Origin: Oceanospirillaceae bacterium
GTDB lineage: Bacteria > Pseudomonadota > Gammaproteobacteria > Pseudomonadales > Balneatricaceae
NCBI GenBank assembly: GCA_018647765.1
Contig: JABGSN010000023.1
Location: 1 to 64,000, forward strand
DNA: 64,000 bases
Direction of reading: 5' to 3'
The notes under the pieces are model-generated. The model was not told the DNA's origin. It ran no database searches and saw only the letters and a program-made list of their open reading frames with translations. Positions 4,783-30,433 of the stretch are shown here, piece by piece. The stretch's first letter is position 1. Every line of letters begins with the position of its first letter. The position numbers and the translations under genes were made by a program.

Positions 4783-6561
4783 TTAGGCGCCTTTTTGTGG
4801 GCGCATATCGTCGCGGCTGATGCCAGCAACTTGTACTGGGTTCTTCATCGCGTCGCGGCGGAACGGCTCGCCTAGCTCTTGGTTGATTAGGACTTCAATC
4901 AAAGTGGTCTTGCCCGCTGCTTGATCTACCAATGCCTGACTTATAGATGCGCTAACTTCGTCCATAGTACGAGCTTGAACGCCTTTAAGGCCACAGGCTT
5001 GCGCAATACCAGCGTAGTTAACGTTTTCGTCTAGCTCTGTGCCTACGAAGTTGTCGTCAAACCATAGGGTGGAGTTACGCTTCTCAGCGCCCCATTGGTA
5101 GTTACGCAATACGATCATAGTCACTGCTGGCCACTCTTCACGGCCAATGGCAGTAAGCTCTGTAACTGCAATACCAAATGCGCCGTCACCTGAGAAACCA
5201 ACAACAGGAACATCTGGGCAACCAATCTTGGCGCCAACTACTGCTGGCAAACCATAACCACAAGGGCCAAACAAACCAGGGGCCAGGTACTTACGGCCTT
5301 CTTCAAAAGTTGGGTAAGCGTTACCAATGGCACAGTTGTTACCAATGTCAGAAGAAATGATCGCTTCTTTTGGCAATACAGCAGAGATAGCGCGCCATGC
5401 CATACGTGGACTTAACCATTGTGGCTTGGCTTCACGAGCACGTTCGTTCCAAGTGGTACCTGGATCGTCGTCTTCATGAGTCATAGCTTCTAACTCAACG
5501 TCCCATGCAGCCTTAGTGGACGCAATGTGCGCTTTACGGTTTGCACGATCAGCGTCGCCAGCTGTTGCAGACAGTTGACCAATAATGCCGTTAGCTACTT
5601 TAGCAGCGTCGCCAACAATACCCACTGTTACAGCCTTGGTTAAACCAATACGCTCAGGCTTTAAGTCGACTTGGATGATTTTGGCATCTTTAGGCCAGTA
5701 ATCCATGCCGTAACCAGGCAATGTAGAGAATGGGTTAAGGCGTGTGCCCAAGGCCAACACTACGTCTGCGTCTTTAATCAACTGCATGCCGGCCTTAGAG
5801 CCGTTGTAGCCTAGTGGACCAGCGAATAATGGGTGTGAACCTGGGAAAGCGTCGTTGTGCTGGTAGCCACAAACAACCGGCGCGTCTAAACGCTCGGCCA
5901 ACGCCATAGAAGCAGCAATGCCGCCATCAGCTAATACCACACCTGCGCCGTTTAAGATCACTGGAGACTTAGCGCCAGACAACAACTTTGCAGCTTCAGC
6001 GACGGCCATCTCGCCACCGGAAGGCAATTCAAAGTCGATCATTGTAGGTAGGTTAATATCTACAATTTGAGTAAACATGTCACGCGGCACGTTGATTTGT
6101 GCAGGTGCGGAAAAACGATGTGCGTTAGCAATAACACGATCAAGAACTTCAGCAATACGTGAAGGGTCACGTACTTCTTCTTGGTAACAAACCATGTCTT
6201 TAAATAGCGCCATTTGCTCTACTTCTTGGAAACCACCTTGGCCAATCGTTTTGTTAGCCGCTTGTGGGGTAACCAACAATAGAGGGGTGTGGTTCCAGTA
6301 ACCCGTTTTAACAGCTGTTACAAAGTTAGTAATGCCTGGGCCGTTTTGAGCGATCATCATGCTCATCTTGCCAGTGGCACGGGTGTAACCGTCGGCCATC
6401 ATGCCGCCAGAACCTTCATGGGCACAATCCCAAAAGCTAATGCCGGCTTTTTCAAACAGGTCGGAGATAGGCATCATGGCTGAGCCAATGATACCAAAAG
6501 CGTGTTCAATACCGTGCATTTGTAGGGTTTTTACAAACGCTTCTTCTGTAGTCATTTTCAT
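4783..6561 (-). CDS. xsc: Sulfoacetaldehyde acetyltransferase (ThDP-dependent)
   Basis: 592 aa; MTTEEAFVKTLQMHGIEHAFGIIGSAMMPISDLFEKAGI, FWDCAHEGSGGMMADGYTRATGKMSM, ThDP motif GDGAFGIAVTELTAIGREEWPAVTMIVLRN. Confidence 0.93.
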   Translation of the reverse strand: MKMTTEEAFVKTLQMHGIEHAFGIIGSAMMPISDLFEKAGISFWDCAHEGSGGMMADGYTRATGKMSMMIAQNGPGITNFVTAVKTGYWNHTPLLLVTPQAANKTIGQGGFQEVEQMALFKDMVCYQEEVRDPSRIAEVLDRVIANAHRFSAPAQINVPRDMFTQIVDINLPTMIDFELPSGGEMAVAEAAKLLSGAKSPVILNGAGVVLADGGIAASMALAERLDAPVVCGYQHNDAFPGSHPLFAGPLGYNGSKAGMQLIKDADVVLALGTRLNPFSTLPGYGMDYWPKDAKIIQVDLKPERIGLTKAVTVGIVGDAAKVANGIIGQLSATAGDADRANRKAHIASTKAAWDVELEAMTHEDDDPGTTWNERAREAKPQWLSPRMAWRAISAVLPKEAIISSDIGNNCAIGNAYPTFEEGRKYLAPGLFGPCGYGLPAVVGAKIGCPDVPVVGFSGDGAFGIAVTELTAIGREEWPAVTMIVLRNYQWGAEKRNSTLWFDDNFVGTELDENVNYAGIAQACGLKGVQARTMDEVSASISQALVDQAAGKTTLIEVLINQELGEPFRRDAMKNPVQVAGISRDDMRPQKGA

Positions 6562-6862
6562 AATCGGTTACACCTAAATTGGGTTGAAAGTGAGTTTAAT
6601 AAATAGAAAGAATTTAGAATTCTTAGGTTATGGATAGAGGATACTCAACTATTGACTAATAGCTTAGATCCACATTAGTTATTTCGATTAGCCCAGTTAA
6701 GCCAATCAAAAAAAACGCCTTACCCACACAGACAAAAATGTCTTGAGTGAGAAAAGCGCAAACTGTCCACTAAGACAGGCTAGGAAATTACTGGTTGTAT
6801 AAATAGTCTGAGAACCAAGGGGCAATTTGAGGGAATTTAAATACTCATAACGATCCAATGGA

Positions 6863-6898
6863 CCACACCGCGCATGAATTTAATGACAGGCGGTGTGG
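6863..6898. terminator. Terminator-like inverted repeat between xsc and the TRAP genes
   Basis: 9-bp perfect arms ccacaccgc/gcggtgtgg with 18-nt loop; T-rich only on the + side. Confidence 0.35.
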
Positions 6899-6952
6899 CT
6901 GTTTATTTTTACCAATTTTTTGGTGCTAGCTTAATTCTCACTGAGATAGTTG

Positions 6953-9286
6953 CTACCAATAGTTAGGTAACCACAATGCAATTTGTGGGATGAATATAAT
7001 TAACAGTAAACCGATTAACTGAATTACCATGAACTGCATCATACCTAAGTAAATATCCTTTAAGTCCCATTCTGGCACCACCCCTTTGAGGAAATAGGCA
7101 GACAAAGCCACTGGCGGGCTAAGCCAGGCAGTTTGGAGATTTACCGCCACAAGTATGGCAAACCAAATTAACAAGTCTGCTGAATTTAAGCCAAAGTCTA
7201 GAGTTTCTACCACAGGCAATAGAATAGGCACAATAATCAATACAATGGGCACCCACTCTAGCGGCCATCCCAACACGAAAATTAATGCCAATATGAAAAA
7301 CAACATTGCCCAAGACGACATGTCAAAGGACAAGAGTAATTCAGTCAACATCTGGGGTGTGCCAAGGTTTGAGAATACCGCGCCAAAGAAGTTGGATGCA
7401 GCCACCAAAAACATAATTAGAACCGTAATTTCTAGGGTCTTAATTAATGCCTCATAAGTAACCACAATACTAAATTTTCGGTAACCAATAGATAGAATTA
7501 ACGAACCAAAAGCACCACACGCTGCTGCTTCTGCTGGCGTTGCAAGTCCTGCCACAATAGAACCTAAAGAGAAGGCAATGAGCACCGTGGGCGGCACCAG
7601 ACCCATAAAGAACTCATACCATAAGTCAGAAAAATAAAAACCCTTGGGTTTAGCTTCCCGCGTCCATTTAAACGCCCTGAACATTAGGACCAACCATAAT
7701 AATGGAATCACCAGTCCTGCAAGTGGGAATAATGCCAAGCTACCTTTGGTTGCCAAAACACATAAGAATACGAACATGCCCAAGCCGGACATCACTAATA
7801 TTACTTCTAGGCCGTAATAAGGTGATGTTTCGGGCTGTTCTTCTTTAGGCAAAATAGGCCCAAGGTCAGGGTTAATCATGCAACGGCCAATAGTATATAT
7901 CATATACAAACTAGCCAATAACACCCCAGGAAACACTGCTGCACGGAATAAGTCCGTCACAGGCACTTCCAGAACAGGCCCCATAACAATCAACATAATG
8001 GAAGGAGGTATTAATATGCCTAAGGTTCCACCCGCCGTAATAGCACCTGCCGATAGGCGCACATCATATTTAGAGCGATTCATGGTTTTAGCCGCCATAA
8101 TGCCCAAAATAGTGACCGATGCGCCAACAATACCCGTAGCGGCTGCAAAAATCATTGAGACAAACAACACGGCAATAAACAAGGCACCCCGAGTGCGTGA
8201 CATCATCATTTGTACGGCATTAAACAGGCGCTCCATGAGCCCTGCTTGTTCCATCATAATGCCCATAAAAATAAACAAAGGCACGGCTACAAGCTGGTCA
8301 TTCAACATCGTGGAATTGACTTGAAGGGTCAGCAGGAAGAAGGCTAACTTACTGCTACCCGCTATCGAAGCAAATACAAAGCCAAGAAATATCAATGTAA
8401 AGGAAATAGGAAATCCGATGAAAATAGAAAACAACATGGCCGCTAACATGAGCATACCAATCATCGGTTTTGAAATATTAACGTCACCTAGCAGACTTGA
8501 TAACCAATCCCCTAAAGGCAACACATCTGGGTAGAACACAGATACAAAAACACATGCCAGACCGATTAAATAGAAAGGAAAAATCTTTAAAAATTTTCCT
8601 TCTCTTTCTTTGCCCATCTGGTGAAAAGCACGGAATAACTCAGGGAAACCCTGTAAAAACAGTAATCCAGCACCAATAGGCATAAAAATGCGGGCAGGCC
8701 ATAAGTAAGGTGCCCATGTGGAATCAGCACTCGCGTCTTCCCAGATACCCCATTTTTCACCCCAACCATTAAAGCCTAAAGAATCACCAGTAAAGCCTAC
8801 TGCACTCCAAAAGAACAGAATCATAGCGGGGAAATAGAACAGTAGGTATAAGGTGGCGTCAACAGTAGCTTGGGTTCTCTCATGCCAATTACGATAGATG
8901 AAATCTGCCCGAATATGCACACCGCGCATTAAGGCATAGCCTGATGCGGCCATAAATATCACCCCTCCAAGCATTCGACTAACGTCATAGACCCAAACGG
9001 TGGGCCCCAAGTTTACCGCACGTGCCAAGTCACCCAAATCATAAGAAATTAGTAAAGCAAACATGCCTCGGGAAAATACTTCGATCACCATCACAGCCAC
9101 TAAAGGGATAATGGCCAAGCAAATGATGCGCCCCATCCATAAATTCAGCACATCAATAAAAGCAGTAATGGGACGCTGCCAAGGCGTCATGTCCTCTGGT
9201 GTTTGTCCCGGTTTTTCGGCGCGACGCTCTGCGATTAATTCATCGGTGATTTCGAGTTCGCCAATGTCTGTTACTTGTGTCGCCAT
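6953..9286 (-). CDS. TRAP transporter, fused DctQ-DctM permease
   Basis: 777 aa; N-terminal small-subunit region plus C-terminal large subunit (VPLFIFMGIMMEQAGLMERLF, AAATGIVGASVTILGIMA, GGTLGILIPPSIMLIVMG). Confidence 0.92.
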   Translation of the reverse strand: MATQVTDIGELEITDELIAERRAEKPGQTPEDMTPWQRPITAFIDVLNLWMGRIICLAIIPLVAVMVIEVFSRGMFALLISYDLGDLARAVNLGPTVWVYDVSRMLGGVIFMAASGYALMRGVHIRADFIYRNWHERTQATVDATLYLLFYFPAMILFFWSAVGFTGDSLGFNGWGEKWGIWEDASADSTWAPYLWPARIFMPIGAGLLFLQGFPELFRAFHQMGKEREGKFLKIFPFYLIGLACVFVSVFYPDVLPLGDWLSSLLGDVNISKPMIGMLMLAAMLFSIFIGFPISFTLIFLGFVFASIAGSSKLAFFLLTLQVNSTMLNDQLVAVPLFIFMGIMMEQAGLMERLFNAVQMMMSRTRGALFIAVLFVSMIFAAATGIVGASVTILGIMAAKTMNRSKYDVRLSAGAITAGGTLGILIPPSIMLIVMGPVLEVPVTDLFRAAVFPGVLLASLYMIYTIGRCMINPDLGPILPKEEQPETSPYYGLEVILVMSGLGMFVFLCVLATKGSLALFPLAGLVIPLLWLVLMFRAFKWTREAKPKGFYFSDLWYEFFMGLVPPTVLIAFSLGSIVAGLATPAEAAACGAFGSLILSIGYRKFSIVVTYEALIKTLEITVLIMFLVAASNFFGAVFSNLGTPQMLTELLLSFDMSSWAMLFFILALIFVLGWPLEWVPIVLIIVPILLPVVETLDFGLNSADLLIWFAILVAVNLQTAWLSPPVALSAYFLKGVVPEWDLKDIYLGMMQFMVIQLIGLLLIIFIPQIALWLPNYW

Positions 9287-9476
9287 GTCGGCTTCCTCAT
9301 ATTATTGTCAGCAATTATTACGCCTTGTCTTCAGAAAGACTGGCCTAAAGTTACTGTAACTAGCTGTTACAAAGTGAAAAATCTATCATAGGTTTCTGTA
9401 TGAAAAGTGCGAGAAGACTATGATAAACTTCTTACCATCGTATAAGTTTACAACCTTAATTATTGCGCTGCGATAA

Positions 9477-9505
9477 ATTGACCTAGCACTCAGTACTAGG
9501 TCAAT
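9477..9505 (-). promoter_or_regulatory. Intra-operon hairpin between dctP and fused TRAP permease
   Basis: Perfect 10-bp arms attgacctag/ctaggtcaat, 9-nt loop, no strong U-tract. Confidence 0.5.
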
Positions 9506-9524
9506 ATCAAGTCAATGCAAACTA

Positions 9525-10628
9525 TTACTTGATGCTATCAGCAAAGGCCTTACCTAAACTAGCATTAGATGCCTGTGCACCAGCCCAGAAAGGCACTGCG
9601 ATTGCAGCGAAATCTTTTTGCGACTGCCAAACTTCTGCAAAGAATTCATTCTCATCAGAAGATTTTTGAAGCAGCGCGTTTGCCGCATTCATATACGCAG
9701 GGAAATAATCTGCTGGCGTATCATGTAATTGCACACCATGATTCTCGGTTAAGTCTTTCAAAGCCTTACCGTTCTCATAGATACGGTAAGAAATAGATTT
9801 TGACAAAGATGCATTAGCAGCTACTTCTATAGCTTTCTTTTGCATAGTGGTTAGAGAGTCATAAACATCGCCGTTTAAGTACATGTCCGCATTTACGACC
9901 ACTTGGTGAAGACCTTGTAGGTAATAATGCTTTAATACTTTTTGGAAACCAAACACACTATCAGGTTTTGGACAACACCATTCGGCGGAGTCAATTGTGC
10001 CTTTTTCAAGTGCGGGTAGGATGTCACCACCGCCCATAGCAACAGAGGCCACGCCAATGTCTTTGTAAGCTTGACCTACCATGCCTGGAGGAGCGCGGAA
10101 ACGGAGCTTACGAAAGTCATCCATGGACTCAATAGGCTCAGGGAACCATCCCAAAGCTTCTGGGCCAACAGGCTGCAACATAAAGCCTTTAACGTTAACG
10201 CCCATTTCGCCCCAAAGACGATCATAAAGTTCTTTACCACCACCGTATTGGAACCAAGAAAGGAACGCAATATTATCAAGGCCTACACCTGCACCTGCGA
10301 TAGGAGCACCAAATAGGTTAGCGGCAGGATGTTTACCACCCCAATAATGAGTCCACGCAAAACCACCGTCTAGCAAACCAGCATCAATAGCATCGATAAT
10401 GTCAGTGTTACCAACAACCGACCCCCCTGGCAATATTTCAATATTGACAGAACCGTCGGTCAATTCACGCACATCCTTAGCAAATTCATTCAACATGTGC
10501 ACTTCATCAGATTTAGTGCCAAGCACTGACTGAACACGAAGAGTAACATCTTTAGCATAAACTGCAGTGGTGCTCATAATCAGCGCACCAGCTATAGCAG
10601 CCAACTTCATTTTGTTTAAAACGGACAT
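9525..10628 (-). CDS. TRAP transporter substrate-binding protein (DctP family)
   Basis: Signal peptide; TLRVQSVLG...FAKDVRELTDGSVNIEILPGGSVVGNTDIIDAIDAGLLDG; FRAPPGMVGQAYKDIG. Confidence 0.92.
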   Translation of the reverse strand: MSVLNKMKLAAIAGALIMSTTAVYAKDVTLRVQSVLGTKSDEVHMLNEFAKDVRELTDGSVNIEILPGGSVVGNTDIIDAIDAGLLDGGFAWTHYWGGKHPAANLFGAPIAGAGVGLDNIAFLSWFQYGGGKELYDRLWGEMGVNVKGFMLQPVGPEALGWFPEPIESMDDFRKLRFRAPPGMVGQAYKDIGVASVAMGGGDILPALEKGTIDSAEWCCPKPDSVFGFQKVLKHYYLQGLHQVVVNADMYLNGDVYDSLTTMQKKAIEVAANASLSKSISYRIYENGKALKDLTENHGVQLHDTPADYFPAYMNAANALLQKSSDENEFFAEVWQSQKDFAAIAVPFWAGAQASNASLGKAFADSIK

Positions 10629-12988: not shown

Positions 12989-13105
12989 TAACATTATGCA
13001 TAAAACCACATTGCAAGAAAGTTTTCAAGATTTTTTTATACAAACACAGTATTCTTGACCACCATTATTTTCATTGACTCAGGCTACGAAGGAACTCTCA
13101 AAGTC

Positions 13106-13867
13106 ATGACCGAAACCACTCGTATCGCCACCAATATGCGCCTTTTTTATATTTTAGATGTGCTTGGCGAAAACCAACGACCCATGACGCCATCCGAAAT
13201 TAATGCTGAATTAAACTGGCCCAAACAAACGGTTCACCGCTTATGCAAGTCTATGGTCGAGGAAGGCTTTCTAGTTTACGACGCGGCGGGAAAAAAACTC
13301 CTGCCTAGTACCAACCTACGTAGCATTGCTAGCGGAATAGTTGCCAGTGACTGGTGTAGCACAGCTATTCACCAAGTATTGGAAAGCCTCAGTACCAAAG
13401 TACAAGAAACTGTGAACTTTGTGGTACCTGAACAACCGGGTATGATTTATAAAGACCGTGTGCAAACCAACTGGGCCTTTCAAGTACATTTGCCCGTAGG
13501 CTCCCACGTACCCTTTTATTGCACAGCTAGCGGCAAAACCTATTTAGCAAGTCTGCCTGCCAAAGCTCGCGCTCTACTAGTAGAATCCCTTGATCTAAAA
13601 CCGCTAACCAAAAATACTATTAGCCAAAAATCAGCTTTATTAGAAGAACTAAAAAAAGTCAAGAAACAAGGCTATGCTATTGATAAAGAAGAATTTTTTG
13701 AAGGAATGGTGGCTATTTCTGTACCCGTTCTGGATCCCAAAGGCAGATACCATGGAGCCCTTGCTTTTCATGGACCCACAATGCGCTTGGACGTCACAAC
13801 TATTGTCCAACACTACGCCTGTTTACGCGACTCAGCCGACCAGCTAAGCCATATTCTATTTAACTAG
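13106..13867 (+). CDS. IclR-family transcriptional regulator (start chosen at MTETTRIATNMRLF)
   Basis: N-terminal wHTH (LDVLGENQRPMTPSEINAELNWPKQTVHRLCKSMVEEGFL) and C-terminal effector domain. Confidence 0.9.
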   Translation: MTETTRIATNMRLFYILDVLGENQRPMTPSEINAELNWPKQTVHRLCKSMVEEGFLVYDAAGKKLLPSTNLRSIASGIVASDWCSTAIHQVLESLSTKVQETVNFVVPEQPGMIYKDRVQTNWAFQVHLPVGSHVPFYCTASGKTYLASLPAKARALLVESLDLKPLTKNTISQKSALLEELKKVKKQGYAIDKEEFFEGMVAISVPVLDPKGRYHGALAFHGPTMRLDVTTIVQHYACLRDSADQLSHILFN

Positions 13868-15016
13868 GTGCCCAACCAAACTGGTAGGGTTAGCACAGTG
13901 CAATTGTGACATCACCTGCCCCAACTCTAGGCGTAATAGCTCAATAGCATGATCAGCACCAGCCTGACCATGAGCCGCAACACCATACAAAAACATGCGC
14001 CCAGCAAATACTGCCTTGGCACCTAAAGCCATATAACGAGCCACATCCACGCCAGATTCCACACCACTGTCTACCATCACTTCACATTGGTTGCCTACGG
14101 CCGCGACAATTTCCGGCAATACTTGTACTGGAGATTGGGCCGCATCTAACTGGCGACCTCCATGATTGGAGACGATAATAGCATCAGCCCCTAATGCCAC
14201 TGCACGCTGGGCATCTGTAACACTTAGTACACCTTTAACAATCAGCTTTCCTGACCACTGCGCACGTATGCGTTGCAAGCTTGCTGCGTCCACGACATCG
14301 CGTAATTTCGTGCGGATAAATTCAGCAGCATCGTCCATGGACATGGTTTGTTGGTCCATATAGGGCGTTAAATTGGCAAACTGCGGCAACCCTTCGCGCA
14401 AGGTCGCTATGCTCCATAGTGGCCGCATAGTCGACTGTATTACACTAGAAAGCGTAATTTTTGGCGGTACGCTCAGGCCACTCTTGATAGCCTTTAAGCG
14501 CCGGCTCGGGGTCGGCACATCTAGCGTCACCACCAAATTTTCACAACCGCAAGCCTTAAGCCTAGCCAACAAATCGTCTTGAATCCCCAGGTCACTGGGA
14601 GAATAGAGCTGGAACCAAAAATTTTGTTGGGCATGCTTAGCCGCCTCTTCAAGTGCTAAGGTCGACACAGTACTTAACACAAAGGGAATATTTGCCGTTC
14701 TAGCAGCTTTGGCATGCATGACCGACGCTTGTGGCCACACCAAACCCGTTAACCCCAAAGGCGCTATACCATAAGGGGCACTATATTCACGCCCCAGTAT
14801 ATGCGTTGTTAAGTTTGGTGCCTGATAGGCCTCTAGATAATGAGGTTCTAAGCGAAGACTATCCAACATTTTGCGATTATGCTGGACAGCCACACCAGTA
14901 TTACAGCCTTCTTCGATATAATCAAAAGCAAATTTAGGCACTCTCTTTTTAGCCCGACATTTTAAATCGGCCATCGATACGGACTGTGAGAGTGAATTCA
15001 TCATACTGTTGCTCAT
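13856..15016 (-). CDS. FMN-dependent alpha-hydroxy-acid dehydrogenase (LldD/glycolate oxidase family); candidate sulfolactate dehydrogenase by context
   Basis: YGIAPLGLTGLVWPQA, KLIVKGVLSVTDAQRAVALGADAIIVSNHGGRQLD, VMVDSGVESGVDVARYMALGAKAVFAGRMFLYG. Confidence 0.9.
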   Translation of the reverse strand: MSNSMMNSLSQSVSMADLKCRAKKRVPKFAFDYIEEGCNTGVAVQHNRKMLDSLRLEPHYLEAYQAPNLTTHILGREYSAPYGIAPLGLTGLVWPQASVMHAKAARTANIPFVLSTVSTLALEEAAKHAQQNFWFQLYSPSDLGIQDDLLARLKACGCENLVVTLDVPTPSRRLKAIKSGLSVPPKITLSSVIQSTMRPLWSIATLREGLPQFANLTPYMDQQTMSMDDAAEFIRTKLRDVVDAASLQRIRAQWSGKLIVKGVLSVTDAQRAVALGADAIIVSNHGGRQLDAAQSPVQVLPEIVAAVGNQCEVMVDSGVESGVDVARYMALGAKAVFAGRMFLYGVAAHGQAGADHAIELLRLELGQVMSQLHCANPTSLVGHLVK

Positions 15017-15037: not shown

Positions 15038-16156
15038 CTAGGTGACGGCATTCATAAAACGCTGCTTAATAGCGACAGCTTTCAAGGGAATTTCAGCACC
15101 CACCTTATCATTGCCAGCTTCAATAAAGTAATGCATAAAACGCACTTTGCCTTGCAAACCTTTATGCAGCTCATCTACTTGATCGGTCATAGCCGTTGAC
15201 TCAATAGCTGCTGATTGAGCAAAAGCCGTCAAGTTATAGCCTTTTGAACTTAATGTAGGCTGGTTACCCGTGGAGCCCCAGCTACCATTATCTAAACAAA
15301 CCAACGTAAAGTTACTGGGGTTAAATGAGGCAATATCATACATTTGGTTAGGGTTAAAAAACATGGATCCATCACCGTCAATAACATACACATGGCGCTC
15401 TGGCTGCGCCATAGCCAAACCTAAACCCACAGCCACGGCAGAGCCTAAAGCACCTAACATATAAAAGTTGGTCTCCCGGTCTTTGGTGTTATAGAGTTCT
15501 TTAGATGGGAAGCCAATTTGCGACAAGACAATATCATGATCCTCCACTACATCCATAATTTGACCAATTGCGCCAAGGCGAGTGACACTAGGCTGGCCAC
15601 TATAGGCAGGCGCTTCAGCTTGCACGGCATTAATACGTGGCGCCCCAAAATTATGATAATCAGCACTGTTCTGTTCCCACAATTCAGGAGACATAAGGAA
15701 CACTTTGACTTTGTTATCCGCAAAGCAACTAGCTACTTCAGCATTGATATTATCAAGGTCTTCCATATTGGATAAGATTTGGTATTCCACATCAATGGCA
15801 TTTAACAAGTCTTCTACCTTACTACCAAATATAATCTGCGCTTCAATCGGCTCTTGATAATAACCACGCCAAGACACAAAAATTGGCAAACCTACCTCAT
15901 ACAGCTTTTGCATGGTGTAAAGTTCGGTGATCAAGTTACCCAAACCTGTATTTTGAATCATCATAGCCGAACGTTTATGGCCCAAGCTACGCCCAAAACA
16001 TAAACCTAAACCACCAGATTCTTTAGTTATATCCAATACCGTCATTTCAGCTGGCTTGTGGCTCATCAGCGCATTCATTTTATTACACGGCAGATAGGTA
16101 ACAGCATCCACATCATTGGTTTGTAAGGCAGACCATATACGCTGGCTATTATTCAT
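15038..16156 (-). CDS. Fused ComD-ComE-like sulfopyruvate decarboxylase (phosphonopyruvate decarboxylase relative)
   Basis: N-terminal ComD-like half and C-terminal ThDP half (GLAMAQPERHVYVIDGDGSMFFNPNQMYDIASFNPSNFTLVCLDNGSWGSTGNQPT). Confidence 0.8.
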   Translation of the reverse strand: MNNSQRIWSALQTNDVDAVTYLPCNKMNALMSHKPAEMTVLDITKESGGLGLCFGRSLGHKRSAMMIQNTGLGNLITELYTMQKLYEVGLPIFVSWRGYYQEPIEAQIIFGSKVEDLLNAIDVEYQILSNMEDLDNINAEVASCFADNKVKVFLMSPELWEQNSADYHNFGAPRINAVQAEAPAYSGQPSVTRLGAIGQIMDVVEDHDIVLSQIGFPSKELYNTKDRETNFYMLGALGSAVAVGLGLAMAQPERHVYVIDGDGSMFFNPNQMYDIASFNPSNFTLVCLDNGSWGSTGNQPTLSSKGYNLTAFAQSAAIESTAMTDQVDELHKGLQGKVRFMHYFIEAGNDKVGAEIPLKAVAIKQRFMNAVT

Positions 16157-16176: not shown

Positions 16177-17181
16177 TTAAATTAAATGATCCGGTTGTAG
16201 CACAATTTTTGCTGCCGCAACTCGACCATGATGTAAATCGGAAAAGGCCTTAGCTCCTTCGCTTAAAGGCCGCTGTTCAACCCACTGCAATGAGCCCAAT
16301 TGGCCATGGGCTAACATTGTTAGGGCGGCACTCATATCCGCAGGGGTATAGCAGTAATTGCCTAGCACGCTCACCTCCTGCAAAGTGATTTTGCGCATAT
16401 CCAAACCATCGTCGTTATTTTGTAAACCAACGTGAGAAATAATGCCACCAGGCGCTACCTGCTCACTAGCCATGGCACGAGTTACACCAGCGCCAACACA
16501 GTCCAACACCACGTCATACTGACCAGCATGGGGTGCTATTTGACTCATAGGATCAAAACTTTGCGCCACCTGCTCTCGATCTACCGTAGCCCGACGTAAG
16601 TCATTGGTTTCGGCCAAATCAATGCTACGACAACCCTTCGCTGCCAAGACTAAAGCAGTTAACAAGCCAATTGCCCCGCCACCAATAACGAGGCAGCGTT
16701 GTTCAGATATGGGTCTATAGCTCACCCGCTCCACCAAACTCACAGCATGAAGGGCGGTGGCGGTAGGTTCCGTCAGGGATGCCGTAACCGCATCGACAGC
16801 CGCCGGGACTGATAGCAGGCTGGTTTGCTTCATCACTAGATAATCAGCATAGGCGCCAGCCAAATACATTCCGATAAGCTCTCGCTTGGTACATAAATTA
16901 CTGCGACCAGCAAGGCAGTGCTGGCAATAGCCGCAACTCATGAGTGGATTAACCACCACGCGTTGACCATCTAGCTCCCCTCCCGTTACCGTACCGCAAA
17001 CCTCGTGGCCTAAAATTAGCGGCGGTACTCGACGCTCATCATGGCCATGATAGGCATGCATGTCAGAACCACATATTGCCGTGGCTTCCACTTGCAACAG
17101 CACCTGCCCAGCACCTGCAACGGGTGTTGGCTCATCGCGATAAACCACCTCTTGAGTGGCTGTGTAAACTAAGGCTTTCAT
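16177..17181 (-). CDS. Zn-dependent medium-chain alcohol dehydrogenase; candidate DHPS 2-dehydrogenase
   Basis: ATAICGSDMHAYHGHDERRVPPLILGHEVCGTV, CGYCQHCLAGRSNLC zinc-site cysteines, VIGGGAIGLL Rossmann motif. Confidence 0.88.
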   Translation of the reverse strand: MKALVYTATQEVVYRDEPTPVAGAGQVLLQVEATAICGSDMHAYHGHDERRVPPLILGHEVCGTVTGGELDGQRVVVNPLMSCGYCQHCLAGRSNLCTKRELIGMYLAGAYADYLVMKQTSLLSVPAAVDAVTASLTEPTATALHAVSLVERVSYRPISEQRCLVIGGGAIGLLTALVLAAKGCRSIDLAETNDLRRATVDREQVAQSFDPMSQIAPHAGQYDVVLDCVGAGVTRAMASEQVAPGGIISHVGLQNNDDGLDMRKITLQEVSVLGNYCYTPADMSAALTMLAHGQLGSLQWVEQRPLSEGAKAFSDLHHGRVAAAKIVLQPDHLI

Positions 17182-17199: not shown

Positions 17200-17967
17200 T
17201 TATAAGGCCGTAAAGCCGCCATCAACAGCAATCACTTGTCCGGTAATATAAGCAGATGCTTCACTAGCTAGAAATACACAAATGCCATCCAAATCAGCCA
17301 ACTTGCCGTTACGGCCAATGGCAGTTTTTTGCGCCAACTGATGTGCTGTATCACCATCTTCAAACACGGGCTGGGTTAATTCCGTTGGAAAAAATCCTGG
17401 CGCGATAGCATTGCAATTCACCCCTTGAGCCGACCAAGCTTGCGCCATGGCACGAGTTAACTGGCTTATAGCACCTTTAGAAGCACCGTAGGCAATACCA
17501 TTAGCAAAGGCTCTGCTCGACTGCAAAGAAGCGACATTAATGATGCGCCCCCAGCCTCTTTTTTGCATACCAGGAACTAACAATTGTGCCAACATAAAGG
17601 GGGCTTTCACATTCAAGGTTTGGGTTATATCCCAGCTTTGGCTAGTCACATCTTCTGCCGCTTGGCGCAAATTCACACCTGCAGTGTTGCAAATAATATC
17701 CACCTGGCCATAACAGGTTTCGGCAAAATCAGCCACTAGTTGCCAACTGGACTGCTCATTTAAGTCAGCAACAAAAAATGTGGCTTCAATACCACTTTGT
17801 TGCAGTGACTCCACTAATGCTTGCAGTGCTTCCATACGCCTTGCTACTAACACAAGCCTTGCACCCGCGGCACCTAGAGCATGAGCTTGTTGAGCACCAA
17901 TACCCGATGAAGCGCCAGTGATTAGCGCCACCTTACCGGCAAGGCTAAACATCGATTCTTGTAACAT
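17200..17967 (-). CDS. Short-chain dehydrogenase/reductase; candidate DHPS 2-dehydrogenase
   Basis: ALITGASSGIGAQQAHALG, INVASLQSS, YGASKGAISQLTRAMA, YITGQVIAVDGGF. Confidence 0.9.
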   Translation of the reverse strand: MLQESMFSLAGKVALITGASSGIGAQQAHALGAAGARLVLVARRMEALQALVESLQQSGIEATFFVADLNEQSSWQLVADFAETCYGQVDIICNTAGVNLRQAAEDVTSQSWDITQTLNVKAPFMLAQLLVPGMQKRGWGRIINVASLQSSRAFANGIAYGASKGAISQLTRAMAQAWSAQGVNCNAIAPGFFPTELTQPVFEDGDTAHQLAQKTAIGRNGKLADLDGICVFLASEASAYITGQVIAVDGGFTAL

Positions 17968-17968
17968 C

Positions 17969-19273
17969 TTAGGAGCGACCTAAATCAAACTGCTCGTTAG
18001 GGAAGTATTTATGCAAACGATCATCACCGGCACGAGCATGACCTTCCATACCTTCTAAACGTGAGATACGTGCCGCAGCCGCACCTACTTCTCGGTTGGC
18101 TTCTTGAGTCATACGCTGAGTGGTCACGGTTTTAATAAACTTACCCACGGATAAACCGCCCGTATAACGCGCCGCACCTTTGGTCGGCAAGATGTGGTTG
18201 GTGCCAGAGCACTTATCTCCATATGTTACCGTCGTTTCTTCGCCAACAAACAAAGACCCATAGTTAGTCAGGTTCTCTACCCACCAATCTAGATCTTCAC
18301 AATGGATTTCTAAATGCTCGGCGGCGTATTCATCGCTCACTTGCACCGCTTCTTCACGGGTGTCACAGACAACCACCTCAGCATAATCTGCCCAAGCAGA
18401 ACGTGCTGCCGAGCGTGATGGTTCAGGCATATCTTCAATAAGGCCTGGTACTAATTCAATGGCTTTACGTGCTACCTCTGCATCCAGGCTGATCAACCAC
18501 ATGGGGGAATCTGGACCATGTTCGCCTTGACCAACTAAGTCACCAGCAACGATACGCGGATCGGCACTTGAGTCTGCAATTACTGCAATTTCCGTAGGTC
18601 CGGCAAACATATCGATACCCACACGTCCGTATAACATACGTTTTGCTTCGGCCACAAAGCGATTGCCAGGGCCAGCAAGAATGTCGGCTTTTTTTCCGGT
18701 AAACAAACCAAATGCCATGGCAGCAATAGCCTGCACACCACCTAAGGCTAAAATTGTATCAGCGCCACTATAGTCCGCCGTGTACAAGATTGCATCATTC
18801 ACCCCAGCACCGGGCTTAGGCGGTGAGCAAGCAATAACGTGATTAACACCGGCGGCTTTCGCCGTAGCCACAGACATAATGGCCGAGGCAACATGAGAAT
18901 AACGACCACCAGGCACATAACAACCTGCAGTTTGCATAGCAATTTGGCGCTGGCCAGCCCACAAACCAGGTGACAACTCCACTTCAAAATCAATTAACGC
19001 ATTACGCTGGTGCTGGGCAAATTTACTGACTCGCTCGTGAGCAAAGCGAATATCGTCTTTTACTCGTTGCGTTAAACGTGAACTTGCCGCCTCGATTTCG
19101 TCACGTGTCACCACAATGTTGCCGGTAAACTGATCTAACTGCTGGGCATATTCTGCACAACGTTGTTCACCACCTTGTTCAATGTTTGCCAACATCTCCG
19201 ATACAATCAAGCGTGTGTTGTCTTCGCCTGTGGCAGGCGATTTGTCTGCACGCTTCATATAAGTAATAGTCAT
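17969..19273 (-). CDS. hpsN: HpsN-like sulfopropanediol 3-dehydrogenase (histidinol dehydrogenase family)
   Basis: HisD-fold motifs (GCYVPGGRYSHVASAIMSVATAKAAGV, ALGGVQAIAAMAFGLF, AGPGNRFVAEAKR, FAGPTEIAVIAD, TYGDKCSGTNHILPT) outside any his operon and inside a sulfonate locus. Confidence 0.82.
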   Translation of the reverse strand: MTITYMKRADKSPATGEDNTRLIVSEMLANIEQGGEQRCAEYAQQLDQFTGNIVVTRDEIEAASSRLTQRVKDDIRFAHERVSKFAQHQRNALIDFEVELSPGLWAGQRQIAMQTAGCYVPGGRYSHVASAIMSVATAKAAGVNHVIACSPPKPGAGVNDAILYTADYSGADTILALGGVQAIAAMAFGLFTGKKADILAGPGNRFVAEAKRMLYGRVGIDMFAGPTEIAVIADSSADPRIVAGDLVGQGEHGPDSPMWLISLDAEVARKAIELVPGLIEDMPEPSRSAARSAWADYAEVVVCDTREEAVQVSDEYAAEHLEIHCEDLDWWVENLTNYGSLFVGEETTVTYGDKCSGTNHILPTKGAARYTGGLSVGKFIKTVTTQRMTQEANREVGAAAARISRLEGMEGHARAGDDRLHKYFPNEQFDLGRS

Positions 19274-19313: not shown

Positions 19314-19327
19314 TGTATGCGCTTACA
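19314..19327. promoter_or_regulatory. LacI-family operator O1
   Basis: TGTATGCGCTTACA, near-palindrome with central CG, in hpsN/LacI divergent intergenic region. Confidence 0.75.
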
Positions 19328-19379
19328 TTTTTAATACTAAAACAATAATTCAACATGCACAAGACAGTTTTGAAAAAAA

Positions 19380-19393
19380 TGTATGCGCATACA
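19380..19393. promoter_or_regulatory. LacI-family operator O2
   Basis: TGTATGCGCATACA, perfect 14-bp palindrome with central CG, centre 66 bp from O1. Confidence 0.8.
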
Positions 19394-19487
19394 CTATTAT
19401 TTTGTTACAATCGGCACCAAGCTATAGAACAAACATAAACAACCGTATTAATAACCGAACCGACCACACTCTTTTTATCGTTATTAT

Positions 19488-20504
19488 ATGACTAAAGCAG
19501 CAACTCAAAGTGACGTAGCCAAGGCGGCAAAAGTATCTACGGCAACTGTATCCCGTGTACTTAACCAACCTGACAGCGTAAAACCTGCGGTTCGCAAACG
19601 CGTACAACAAGTAATGAGAGAGCTAAACTATGTTGCCGATGCCGCTGCGAGAGCTTTGGCTAGTAAACGCTCGCAATGTATCGGTGCAGTAATACCCACC
19701 ATTGCTCACTCCATATTTGCCGAGGGCCTAGACGCCTTTGAAGCCACCTTAAACCAAGCCAATTATGGCTTGATGCTCACCAATTCAGGCTATGACGAAG
19801 ACCAAGAGTGGGCCCAGATACGCACTTTAATCGAACGGGGTGTAGACGCTATTATGCTGGTCGGCTACAACCACAAACCGCAGGTTTATGAGTTACTTCA
19901 ACAGCGCAACATACCCTATGTGTTAACCTGGGCTTTTCGTCAACATAGCCATCACCCCTGTGTTGGTTTTGATAACTTTATCAGCGCCCAACACATTCCT
20001 GAGCATTTATTGAAGCTAGGCCACCGTCGGTTTGGACTTATCACTGGCCTTCCGCAACACAACGATCGCGTGATAGACCGCTTGCAAGGCGTTCAACTTG
20101 CACTTGCAAGCCACGGTATTGAACTGGCAGACAATGCCATTGTGCAATGCAGTTACGATATGAGTGCTGGACGCAGAGCGTGCCATGACCTAATGAGTTT
20201 GGAACCACCACCCACAGCCATCATGTGCAGTAATGATGTATTGGCCATTGGTGCCTTACTCGAGTGCCAAGCCAACGGTATTGCTGTGCCTCAGACCGTG
20301 TCTATTGCAGGCTTTGACGATCTGGCGATTAGCCAAAACTTTACCCCCAGCCTAACCACTATGCATGTTCCTGCTAAGCTGATGGGGAAAAAGGCGGCAC
20401 AGTATTTAGTGGCGTCGCTAGCAGGCGAACAGACTCCCCAACACACGCTGGTTGATGTCTCACTGGTTGAGAGAAATTCGTGTGCTGCCCCACCATTGCG
20501 ATAA
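19488..20504 (+). CDS. LacI-family transcriptional regulator
   Basis: TQSDVAKAAKVSTATVSRVLNQPDSVKPAVRKRVQQVMRELNYVADAAARALAS; periplasmic-binding-like domain. Confidence 0.95.
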   Translation: MTKAATQSDVAKAAKVSTATVSRVLNQPDSVKPAVRKRVQQVMRELNYVADAAARALASKRSQCIGAVIPTIAHSIFAEGLDAFEATLNQANYGLMLTNSGYDEDQEWAQIRTLIERGVDAIMLVGYNHKPQVYELLQQRNIPYVLTWAFRQHSHHPCVGFDNFISAQHIPEHLLKLGHRRFGLITGLPQHNDRVIDRLQGVQLALASHGIELADNAIVQCSYDMSAGRRACHDLMSLEPPPTAIMCSNDVLAIGALLECQANGIAVPQTVSIAGFDDLAISQNFTPSLTTMHVPAKLMGKKAAQYLVASLAGEQTPQHTLVDVSLVERNSCAAPPLR

Positions 20505-27558: not shown

Positions 27559-28605
27559 CTAACGGCGGCGTGAACGACGGCTGGTAGCGGCGCCGTCTGC
27601 GGCGCCACCCGCCACACTCAAGTCGCCGGCAAACTGTGCCTTACCGCCTTTAGACACTTCACCCAGAGCAGATTCGATTTGCTCCACTGTGGGTGCATCA
27701 CCTTTGGTATGGCCATCCAGGGCTTTACGCATCGCCGCCACGTGTTCTGGCGACGTGCCACAACAGCCACCAATAATATTAGCGCCGGCATCCATGGCCA
27801 TAGTGGCATATTGAGCCATAATTTCTGGTGTACCATTATAATGAATCGCACCATTGAGGTATTCCGGAATACCACAGTTGGCCTTCGCCACCAATATGGC
27901 TTTGTCACCACCAGGGGCATTACGCATATTACGAATCGCCATCACCAGCTCCGACGCGCCCACACCGCAGTTAGAACCACACGCATAAGCTGTGTGGTCT
28001 TCGTGGGCACAAGATTGCACCATGTCCGAGGGTGTCACACCCATCATTGAACGACCATTGGTATCAAAACTGTAGGTACAAATTACCGGTAAACCAGTAG
28101 TATTGGCGCCCTCTATTGCCGCTTCCGATTCTTGTGTTGAGGACATGGTCTCCACCCACAATACGTCAGCGCCACCTGCCTTTAAGGCCGCCGCTTGTTC
28201 GGTAAAGGCGGCTACGGCATCGGCATGACTTAAACTGCCCATAGGTTCTGGAATCTCGCCCGTCGGCCCAATAGAGCCAGCCACAATAACCAGCCGCCCT
28301 GCTTTGGCTGCCACTTGCTTACCAATTTTAACCCCCGCCACATTGAGCTCGTGAACCCGATCTTGGGCGTTGTGCAACTTCATACGGTAATGCGTGCCAC
28401 CAAAGGTGTTGGTTAAAATAATGTCTGAACCGGCATCAACAAAACTCTGGTAGTTAGCGGCAATACGATCCGGATGGTCCACATTCCACAGCTCAGGCGC
28501 ATCACCTGTTTCTAGGCCCATGGCAAATAAGTTAGTGCCGGTGGCACCGTCTGCTAATAATACGCCGCGTTTTTCTAAAAGATCCTGTAAAACATTGTTG
28601 CTCAT
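27559..28605 (-). CDS. Betaine--homocysteine S-methyltransferase-like protein
   Basis: LLADGATGTNLFAMGLETGDAPELWN, GSIGPTGEIPEPMG, zinc ligand GGCCGTSPEHVAAM; Arg-rich C-terminal tail SRRSRRR. Confidence 0.88.
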   Translation of the reverse strand: MSNNVLQDLLEKRGVLLADGATGTNLFAMGLETGDAPELWNVDHPDRIAANYQSFVDAGSDIILTNTFGGTHYRMKLHNAQDRVHELNVAGVKIGKQVAAKAGRLVIVAGSIGPTGEIPEPMGSLSHADAVAAFTEQAAALKAGGADVLWVETMSSTQESEAAIEGANTTGLPVICTYSFDTNGRSMMGVTPSDMVQSCAHEDHTAYACGSNCGVGASELVMAIRNMRNAPGGDKAILVAKANCGIPEYLNGAIHYNGTPEIMAQYATMAMDAGANIIGGCCGTSPEHVAAMRKALDGHTKGDAPTVEQIESALGEVSKGGKAQFAGDLSVAGGAADGAATSRRSRRR

Positions 28606-28885: not shown

Positions 28886-30433
28886 ATGAGTGAAGCCCGC
28901 GGACGCCGCAAAAGCGGTGGTGGTCGTAGTGCACGTCAAGCATCACGTGCCGCAGACACTGTAACAGCACCGGCCTTTATTACTCGCCAACTAAATCCAT
29001 TTGAAGTGTTGGATGAAGCTGGCCTAGAGCTAATAGAGCGCAATGCCGACATTATCTTAGCTGAAACTGGCATTGAATTTCGTGACGACCCAGAAGCGCT
29101 AGCAGTACTTAAGGCTGCGGGCGCCAGTGTCGATGGCGAGCGTGTACGTTTTCCTCACGGGATGTGTCGCCAGATCATCCAAGCCTCTGCACCTTCAACT
29201 TACACTCAACACGCACGCAACAGTGAGCGTAACTTAGACATCGGCGGCAAAAACACCATCTTTGCGCCAGGTTATGGCTGCCCATTTGTACGCGATTTAG
29301 ACAACGGCCGTCGATACGCCACTATCAATGATTTCCAAAACTTCGTTAAGCTGGCTTACATGTCGCCTTACATGCACCACTCTGGTGGTACTGTATGTGA
29401 ACCCGTAGACGTACCCGTAACCACTCGCCACCTAGACATGCTTTACAGCCACATTAAGTACAGCGACAAAGCCTTTATGGGGTCTGTGACTGCACCATCT
29501 CGAGCGCAAGATACCGTGAACATGGCAAAGATTGTATTTGGTGAAGAGTTTGTCAAAAACAATACCGTGACCACTAGCTTAATCAACGCTAACTCACCTA
29601 TGACCTTTGACGACACCATGCTGGGTGCGGCCAAAATTTACGCCGAAAACAAGCAAGCTTGTGTAGTTACACCATTTATTCTTGCTGGTGCTATGTCGCC
29701 AGTAACCGTTGCCGGAACATTGGCACAGGTGTTGGCGGAAGTGTTAGCCGGCATTACCTTTATTCAGCTGTACCGCCCTGGCACGCCGTGTATCTTCGGC
29801 ACCTTTGCTAGCTCCATCTCGATGCAGTCTGGCGCACCCACCTTCGGTACACCCGAGCCAGCGTTAGTACTTTACGGTGCTGCGCAATTGGCTCGTCGCT
29901 TAGGTGTGCCGTTCCGTAGTGGTGGTTCGTTACCGGGCTCCAAAATTGCCGACGCTCAGGCGGCTTACGAAAGTGCCAACACCCTCATGCCAACCATTAT
30001 GGCTGGAGTTAACTTTGCCCTTCACTCTGCCGGTTGGTTAGAAGGTGGCCTGTCTATGGGTTATGAAAAGTTCGTTATGGACTGTGACCAACTGGGCATG
30101 GCGCATACCTTCTGCAAGGGTGTAGATTTATCTGAAAATGGCCAAGCCATGGACGCTATCCGTGAAGTTGGCCCAGGCAACCATTTCTTAGGCTGCACAC
30201 ACACACAGGCTAACTTCAAAGACGCCTTTTATATGTCTAATCTTGCTGACAACAACAGCTTTGAGCAGTGGGAAGAAGACGGCAGCCAAGACATTCAAGT
30301 GCGGGCTAACAAGTTGTGGAAGAAGATGCTCAACGACTACCAAGCCCCAGCTTTGGACCAGAGCATTGATGACGGCTTGAACGACTTTATGGCCAAGCGT
30401 AGAGAAGAACTAGCTGGCACTGGCGACTTCTAA
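28886..30433 (+). CDS. MttB/MtgB-superfamily (non-pyrrolysine) methylamine methyltransferase
   Basis: LIERNADIILAETGIEFRDDPEALAVLKAAGASVDG.RVRFP, FAPGYGCPFVRDLDNGRRYAT; no in-frame TAG. Confidence 0.9.
   Translation: MSEARGRRKSGGGRSARQASRAADTVTAPAFITRQLNPFEVLDEAGLELIERNADIILAETGIEFRDDPEALAVLKAAGASVDGERVRFPHGMCRQIIQASAPSTYTQHARNSERNLDIGGKNTIFAPGYGCPFVRDLDNGRRYATINDFQNFVKLAYMSPYMHHSGGTVCEPVDVPVTTRHLDMLYSHIKYSDKAFMGSVTAPSRAQDTVNMAKIVFGEEFVKNNTVTTSLINANSPMTFDDTMLGAAKIYAENKQACVVTPFILAGAMSPVTVAGTLAQVLAEVLAGITFIQLYRPGTPCIFGTFASSISMQSGAPTFGTPEPALVLYGAAQLARRLGVPFRSGGSLPGSKIADAQAAYESANTLMPTIMAGVNFALHSAGWLEGGLSMGYEKFVMDCDQLGMAHTFCKGVDLSENGQAMDAIREVGPGNHFLGCTHTQANFKDAFYMSNLADNNSFEQWEEDGSQDIQVRANKLWKKMLNDYQAPALDQSIDDGLNDFMAKRREELAGTGDF

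Follow-up and report, generated by a model that had tools for sequence, protein, structure and literature searches.

Gene content of the hpsN locus

The 64-kb stretch of DNA analysed in this work (the window) contains a pair of divergently transcribed genes, hpsN and a LacI-type regulator gene, which are separated by a 214-bp intergenic region bounded by the hpsN ATG at 19273 on the minus strand and the start of the regulator gene at 19488 on the plus strand. Two palindromic sites, O1 and O2, are located in this divergent region (Table 1). The identity of hpsN given in the preliminary description is upheld by a phmmer comparison, in which HpsN matched the solved DHPS-3-dehydrogenase 8v35 with 570 bits (E=2.8e-170), whereas the best-matching histidinol dehydrogenase chain reached E=4e-69. 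The hpsN operon continues with genes for two further dehydrogenases, a fused sulfopyruvate decarboxylase and an SlcD-like enzyme; the role names of both dehydrogenases and of SlcD follow PMC11131964 and are putative. Further along there are genes for a TRAP transporter, together with xsc, which scores above its curated cut-off. Taken together, this gene set is predicted to encode a route from DHPS through sulfoacetaldehyde to acetyl-phosphate.

Table 1. Genes, candidate operators and predicted promoter elements of the hpsN locus
Feature	Position	Strand	Basis
SlcD-like FMN-dependent 2-hydroxyacid dehydrogenase	13856..15016	-	PF01070; last gene of the hpsN operon; putative role
Fused sulfopyruvate decarboxylase (ComDE)	15038..16156	-	TIGR03845 and TIGR03846 in one chain, each somewhat below cut-off
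HpsP-like Zn-dependent dehydrogenase	16177..17181	-	PF08240/PF00107; synteny
HpsO-like SDR dehydrogenase	17200..17967	-	PF13561/PF00106; follows hpsN in relatives; putative role after PMC11131964
hpsN, (R)-DHPS 3-dehydrogenase	17969..19273	-	phmmer to 8v35
O1, hpsN-proximal operator, TGTATGCGCTTACA	19314..19327	.	Best PWM score in 64 kb; conservation in congeners
Predicted hpsN -10, TAGTAT (minus strand)	19334..19339	-	TACTAT/TAGTAT kept in nine aligned regions; weak by score alone
Predicted hpsN -35, TTGTGC	19357..19362	-	17-bp spacer; TTGTTT in most congeners; putative, from alignment
O2, regulator-proximal operator, TGTATGCGCATACA	19380..19393	.	Second PWM score in 64 kb; position kept in congeners
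Predicted regulator -10, TACAAT	19406..19411	+	12 bp past O2; TATAAT in G974, G975 and G963; putative
HpsR-type LacI-family regulator, 338 aa	19488..20504	+	PF00356, PF13377, PF00532; orthologues by hpsN/TRAP genes; tree

A gene for an IclR-type regulator (13055-13867, plus strand) separates the hpsN operon from the TRAP-xsc genes (4783-10628, minus strand). The scan with the operator matrix described below found no HpsR-type site above 10 bits upstream of the window's TRAP transporter genes or its xsc, and these genes may therefore be controlled by the IclR-type protein as a second regulator. Locus L095 has comparable gene content, again with an IclR-type gene adjoining the TRAP genes. Elsewhere in the window, a 515-aa protein (28886-30433, plus strand) resembles trimethylamine-methyltransferases of the MttB type, and its gene adjoins one for a homocysteine S-methyltransferase-like protein (27559-28605), both recognised by eye only.

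The regulator and its relatives

The regulator has the architecture typical of the LacI family, with a LacI helix-turn-helix at the N-terminus and a periplasmic-binding-protein-like effector domain after it, and all three of its domains score above their cut-offs (PF00356, 63.8 bits; PF13377, 122.4 bits; PF00532, 108.7 bits). Other families of the class and of the phylum contain relatives with about 37-47% identity to it, many of which are encoded next to hpsN, SDR, ADH, comDE or TRAP genes. Some of these genomes appear to be Alpha- or Betaproteobacteria, an assignment made from gene order only. In a phylogenetic tree, all 18 hpsN-linked regulators fall into one clade of 30 proteins (100/99) that is distinct from the outgroups, with the window regulator placed at an open fork within it. 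The gene neighbourhoods associate this clade, across Proteobacteria, with hpsN and the transport of DHPS. The wide contig scan yielded only proteins of about 30% identity, nearly all from Acidobacteriota, which served as outgroups only; a search of viral contigs returned nothing.

Two published loci provide the name. In Ruegeria pomeroyi DSS-3, the LacI-family protein annotated as HpsR (SPO0590) adjoins hpsKLM and hpsNOP (PMC4334477), and in Cupriavidus pinatubonensis HpsR belongs to the hpsRNOUPsuyAB cluster (PMC11382572). The window regulator is likewise a LacI-type protein encoded beside hpsN and genes of DHPS catabolism and transport, in agreement with the synteny expected of HpsR (adjacent hpsN, hpsO/P or DHPS TRAP genes), and it is about 40% identical to HpsR members of other families. 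Based on the tree, the synteny and these two parallels, we assign it as a probable HpsR-type regulator; given the open fork, its membership of the clade stops short of making it a strict one-to-one orthologue of the R. pomeroyi protein.

The window genome (G000; 2,487,997 bases) encodes only one other LacI-type regulator, on contig C51, in which the recognition helix reads SQSAVSR versus STATVSR in the window protein. The same contig encodes a second HpsN-like protein (44% identical; locus L167, G000:C51:5000-14000), which is accompanied by an SDR and by this LacI-type regulator, and similar trios of HpsN-like, SDR and LacI-type genes were found across the order. LacI-type genes located beside HisD-like proteins in the order (about 26% identity) were set aside as a different group.

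Sequence and uniqueness of the candidate operator pair

The centres of the two sites are separated by 66 bp. All 14 bp of O2 form a perfect palindrome, and O1 has one mismatched pair, with one canonical half-site (TGTAAGC) and one variant (TGTATGC). Both are even-length palindromes with a central CG in an intergenic position, which are the features used to recognise LacI-family operators (PMC4052901). The TGTA-N6-TACA pattern occurs nowhere else in the 64-kb window; when the 214-bp region was shuffled 5,000 times with its dinucleotide content preserved, one such word appeared in 1.6% of the shuffles and two appeared in none. Within the entire genome G000, O1 and O2 are the only matches to TGTATGCGCWTACA with zero or one mismatch. 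Matches with two mismatches are as frequent as those to a reversed-pattern control, and the candidates among them (L003-L013, at most 10.9 bits) were accordingly rejected as further sites.

The coordinates and the assignment to LacI-family operators in a divergent promoter region thus agree with the preliminary description, which had also expected the motif to define a genome-wide regulon. The latter expectation is not supported, since the genome has exactly one operator pair, at the hpsN/lacI divergon. A multi-locus regulon was rejected on the same grounds: there is no further site with zero or one mismatch in 2.49 Mb, and no exact site outside the hpsN regions of 15 same-genus genomes. The predicted target of the regulator is a single divergon, as for an ordinary local switch.

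Candidate operators of hpsN-linked regulators in other lineages

Upstream of the related regulators we found palindromes close to the consensus ATGTAAGCGCTTACAT, usually two of them at a distance of 21-23 bp, with wider pairs of 32, 56, 65 and 108 bp in some taxa. At least one operator-type site precedes the regulator gene in all 18 hpsN-linked LacI loci, the window included; in length-matched control stretches taken from these loci, one site occurred in 0.55% and two in 0.03%. A positional weight matrix (PWM) was built from sites of other taxa only, leaving the window out; its seed sites were chosen by similarity to the consensus seen in those loci. In the scan of the 64 kb with this matrix, O1 scored highest (20.3 bits), followed by O2 (14.5 bits) and then by a match of 9.1 bits; a matrix restricted to hpsN-linked loci gave 18.4, 12.6 and 10.0 bits, respectively. 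The operator motif is thus common to the window and other hpsN-linked regulators, and it is O1, not the perfect palindrome O2, that is nearer to the family consensus. The motif proposed in the preliminary description is in this way borne out by sites from other taxa, as it is by conservation within the genus (see below).

Loci with gene orders of the R. pomeroyi or C. pinatubonensis type carry the same operator class as the window. However, the window sites are 66 bp apart, whereas HpsR loci of other families have the 22-bp tandem, and the window TRAP and xsc genes lack such a site. Tandem operators were also described for RafR, ScrR and other LacI-family regulators by Ravcheev et al. 2014 (PMC4052901). 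The hpsN-linked loci resemble the RafR and ScrR systems in the even palindrome with central CG, the intergenic position and the local divergon with predicted autoregulation, as well as in the recurrence of 22- and 32-bp site spacings; the spacing of 66-77 bp in the window and its genus lies outside the 13-, 22- and 32-bp peaks reported in that study. In the freely accessible literature searched, we found no published HpsR operator or mechanism. HpsR was already named as the LacI-type regulator of DHPS metabolism, to which the present analysis adds a well-supported candidate operator motif and its placement relative to the predicted promoters.

The motif ATGYAAGCGCTTRCAT (TGTAWGCGCWTACA in this genus) allows candidate DHPS-responsive promoters to be recognised directly across marine proteobacteria and offers a route to building a DHPS reporter. 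The biology is apparently that of an ordinary substrate-induced local switch. DHPS is a major organosulfur currency passing from phytoplankton to bacteria.

Conservation within the genus

The same-genus set comprised 15 genomes, the window genome and 14 others. Among these others, HpsN is 82-89% identical in 11 and the regulator 56-65% identical in nine. Exact TGTAWGCGCWTACA sites number 22 over the 15 genomes, all of them paired upstream of hpsN, in 11 genomes, and none occurs in the three genomes that lack this hpsN. In G964 the hpsN match begins at a contig edge and the upstream region is absent from the assembly. The pair is therefore kept in every related genome in which the promoter region is assembled. 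In an alignment of nine intergenic regions, both operators stand out as the most conserved blocks while the surrounding sequence has diverged. A distance of 330 bp between the sites in G967 was discarded, as it spans an assembly gap of Ns.

The TGTATGC half-site, in one or both arms, is frequent in the genus, versus TGTAAGC in other taxa. The recognition helix VSTATVSR is identical in the window regulator and in relatives with TGTAAGC sites, which rejects a change in this helix as the cause. Hinge helices of LacI-family proteins read the minor groove near the operator centre. The substitution lies three positions from the centre, probably where these helices read, and A-T and T-A pairs look alike in the minor groove.

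The genome G966 retains the O1/O2 pair 70 bp apart (L217:11959-13150), flanking the hpsN promoter, but its divergent gene encodes an EamA-type transporter, not hpsR. This pair may possibly have been taken over by a second HpsR-like regulator.

Some congeners (L207:14597-15568, L215:3052-4035, L216:5437-6420 and L213:3125-4102) encode such a second HpsR-like protein, with about 40% identity to the window regulator; the window genome lacks it. The genes next to it are of the slcD, xsc or TRAP type, and TGTAAnCGCTTACA sites are present, forming a 22-bp tandem in G972.

Predicted promoter architecture

A scan with the sigma-70 consensus alone was uninformative, and the alignment of congeners was needed; the promoter geometry is derived from the nine aligned intergenic regions, and the start points are predicted. 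Several of the hexamers are weak by sequence, notably the window hpsN -35 and the regulator -35. The plus-strand TACAAT/TATAAT element past O2 stands out in the window and in G974, G975 and G963; an alternative regulator promoter would consist of TTGAAA (19370) and TATTAT (19395) with a 19-bp spacer. Under either prediction, O2 overlaps the regulator -35 or spacer. The distance from the hpsN -10 to the beginning of O1 is 6 bp in the window, compared with about 16 bp in congeners. The predicted hpsN start point thus falls at or immediately before O1, and O2 is predicted to cover the regulator -35 region. This arrangement, with one operator per promoter, favours the independent control of the two promoters that the preliminary description had considered alongside a DNA loop.

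Proposed mechanism and alternatives

O1 and O2 are almost certainly the binding sites of the divergently encoded HpsR-type regulator, which is predicted to switch both promoters. In the explanation that we consider highly probable, a regulator dimer on O1 would cover the start region of the hpsN-hpsO-hpsP-comDE-slcD operon and another on O2 the -35 and spacer of the promoter that drives the regulator gene, keeping both repressed when the substrate is lacking. DHPS or a breakdown product (such as sulfolactate or sulfolactaldehyde) would then bind the periplasmic-binding-protein-like domain, the ligand-bound dimers would leave the DNA, and both genes would be induced. We infer the binding, the repression rather than activation, the identity of the inducer and any cooperation between O1 and O2. 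The weak hexamers, the open fork in the clade and the retention of the sites in G966 despite the lack of a divergent hpsR count against this explanation.

An elaboration that seems possible but rather doubtful is that two contacting HpsR dimers hold a loop of 66 bp (75-77 bp in congeners) with the hpsN promoter trapped between the sites. Operator loops formed by two operators around a promoter are known from the Lac and Gal systems of E. coli. The spacing in the window differs from the 75-77 bp of eight fully readable congeners by a deletion of about 10 bp between O1 and the hpsN -10, as seen in the alignment; this is about one helical turn, so the helical phase is nearly unchanged. A similar phase is seen in another family, two genomes of which have pairs of 56 and 65 bp (L158 and L159, in G827 and G895); with the 22-bp tandems included, the spacings cluster in phase (R=0.90; P about 0.008 by simulation against uniform spacing, with five lineages that are not fully independent). 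Retention of the upstream site in G966 at 70 bp from O1, without a divergent hpsR, also fits a loop, but that pair is out of phase. Since the lineages are not independent and G966 does not fit, the clustering is only suggestive of cooperation. Further against a loop, the independent spacings are few, most relatives outside the genus have 21-23 bp tandems that are too short for it, and the protein lacks a lac-type tetramerisation tail: it has 338 residues, its periplasmic-binding-protein domain ends at residue 332 and its C-terminus reads RNSCAAPPLR, whereas E. coli LacI has 360 residues with an extra C-terminal tetramerisation segment. The likeness to Lac and Gal is thus limited to the two operators around a promoter, looping itself being hypothetical. 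Slightly more doubtful still is the specific scenario in which a phase-locked loop of 66-77 bp, formed by dimeric HpsR, evolved in this genus from a 22-bp tandem, with indels of one turn tolerated and those of half a turn not.

We regard it as unlikely that the sites bind the regulator mainly to activate hpsN or to act as roadblocks rather than as promoter-occluding operators. The location of O1, on the predicted start or slightly past it, fits a roadblock, but the overlap of O2 with the -35/spacer of the regulator promoter is the usual place for self-repression, and LacI-family regulators are mostly repressors. Recognition of O1 and O2 by the C51 regulator or another factor is very improbable: that regulator is encoded near an HpsN-like paralogue and the general LacI-family consensus is similar, but its recognition helix is different, no such palindrome was found at its own locus, and the sites travel with this hpsN across the same-genus genomes. 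Short AT-rich intergenic regions favour TGTA and TACA words, yet a chance origin of the palindromes can practically be dismissed, as no shuffled sequence contained two and the pair is conserved in 11 genomes.
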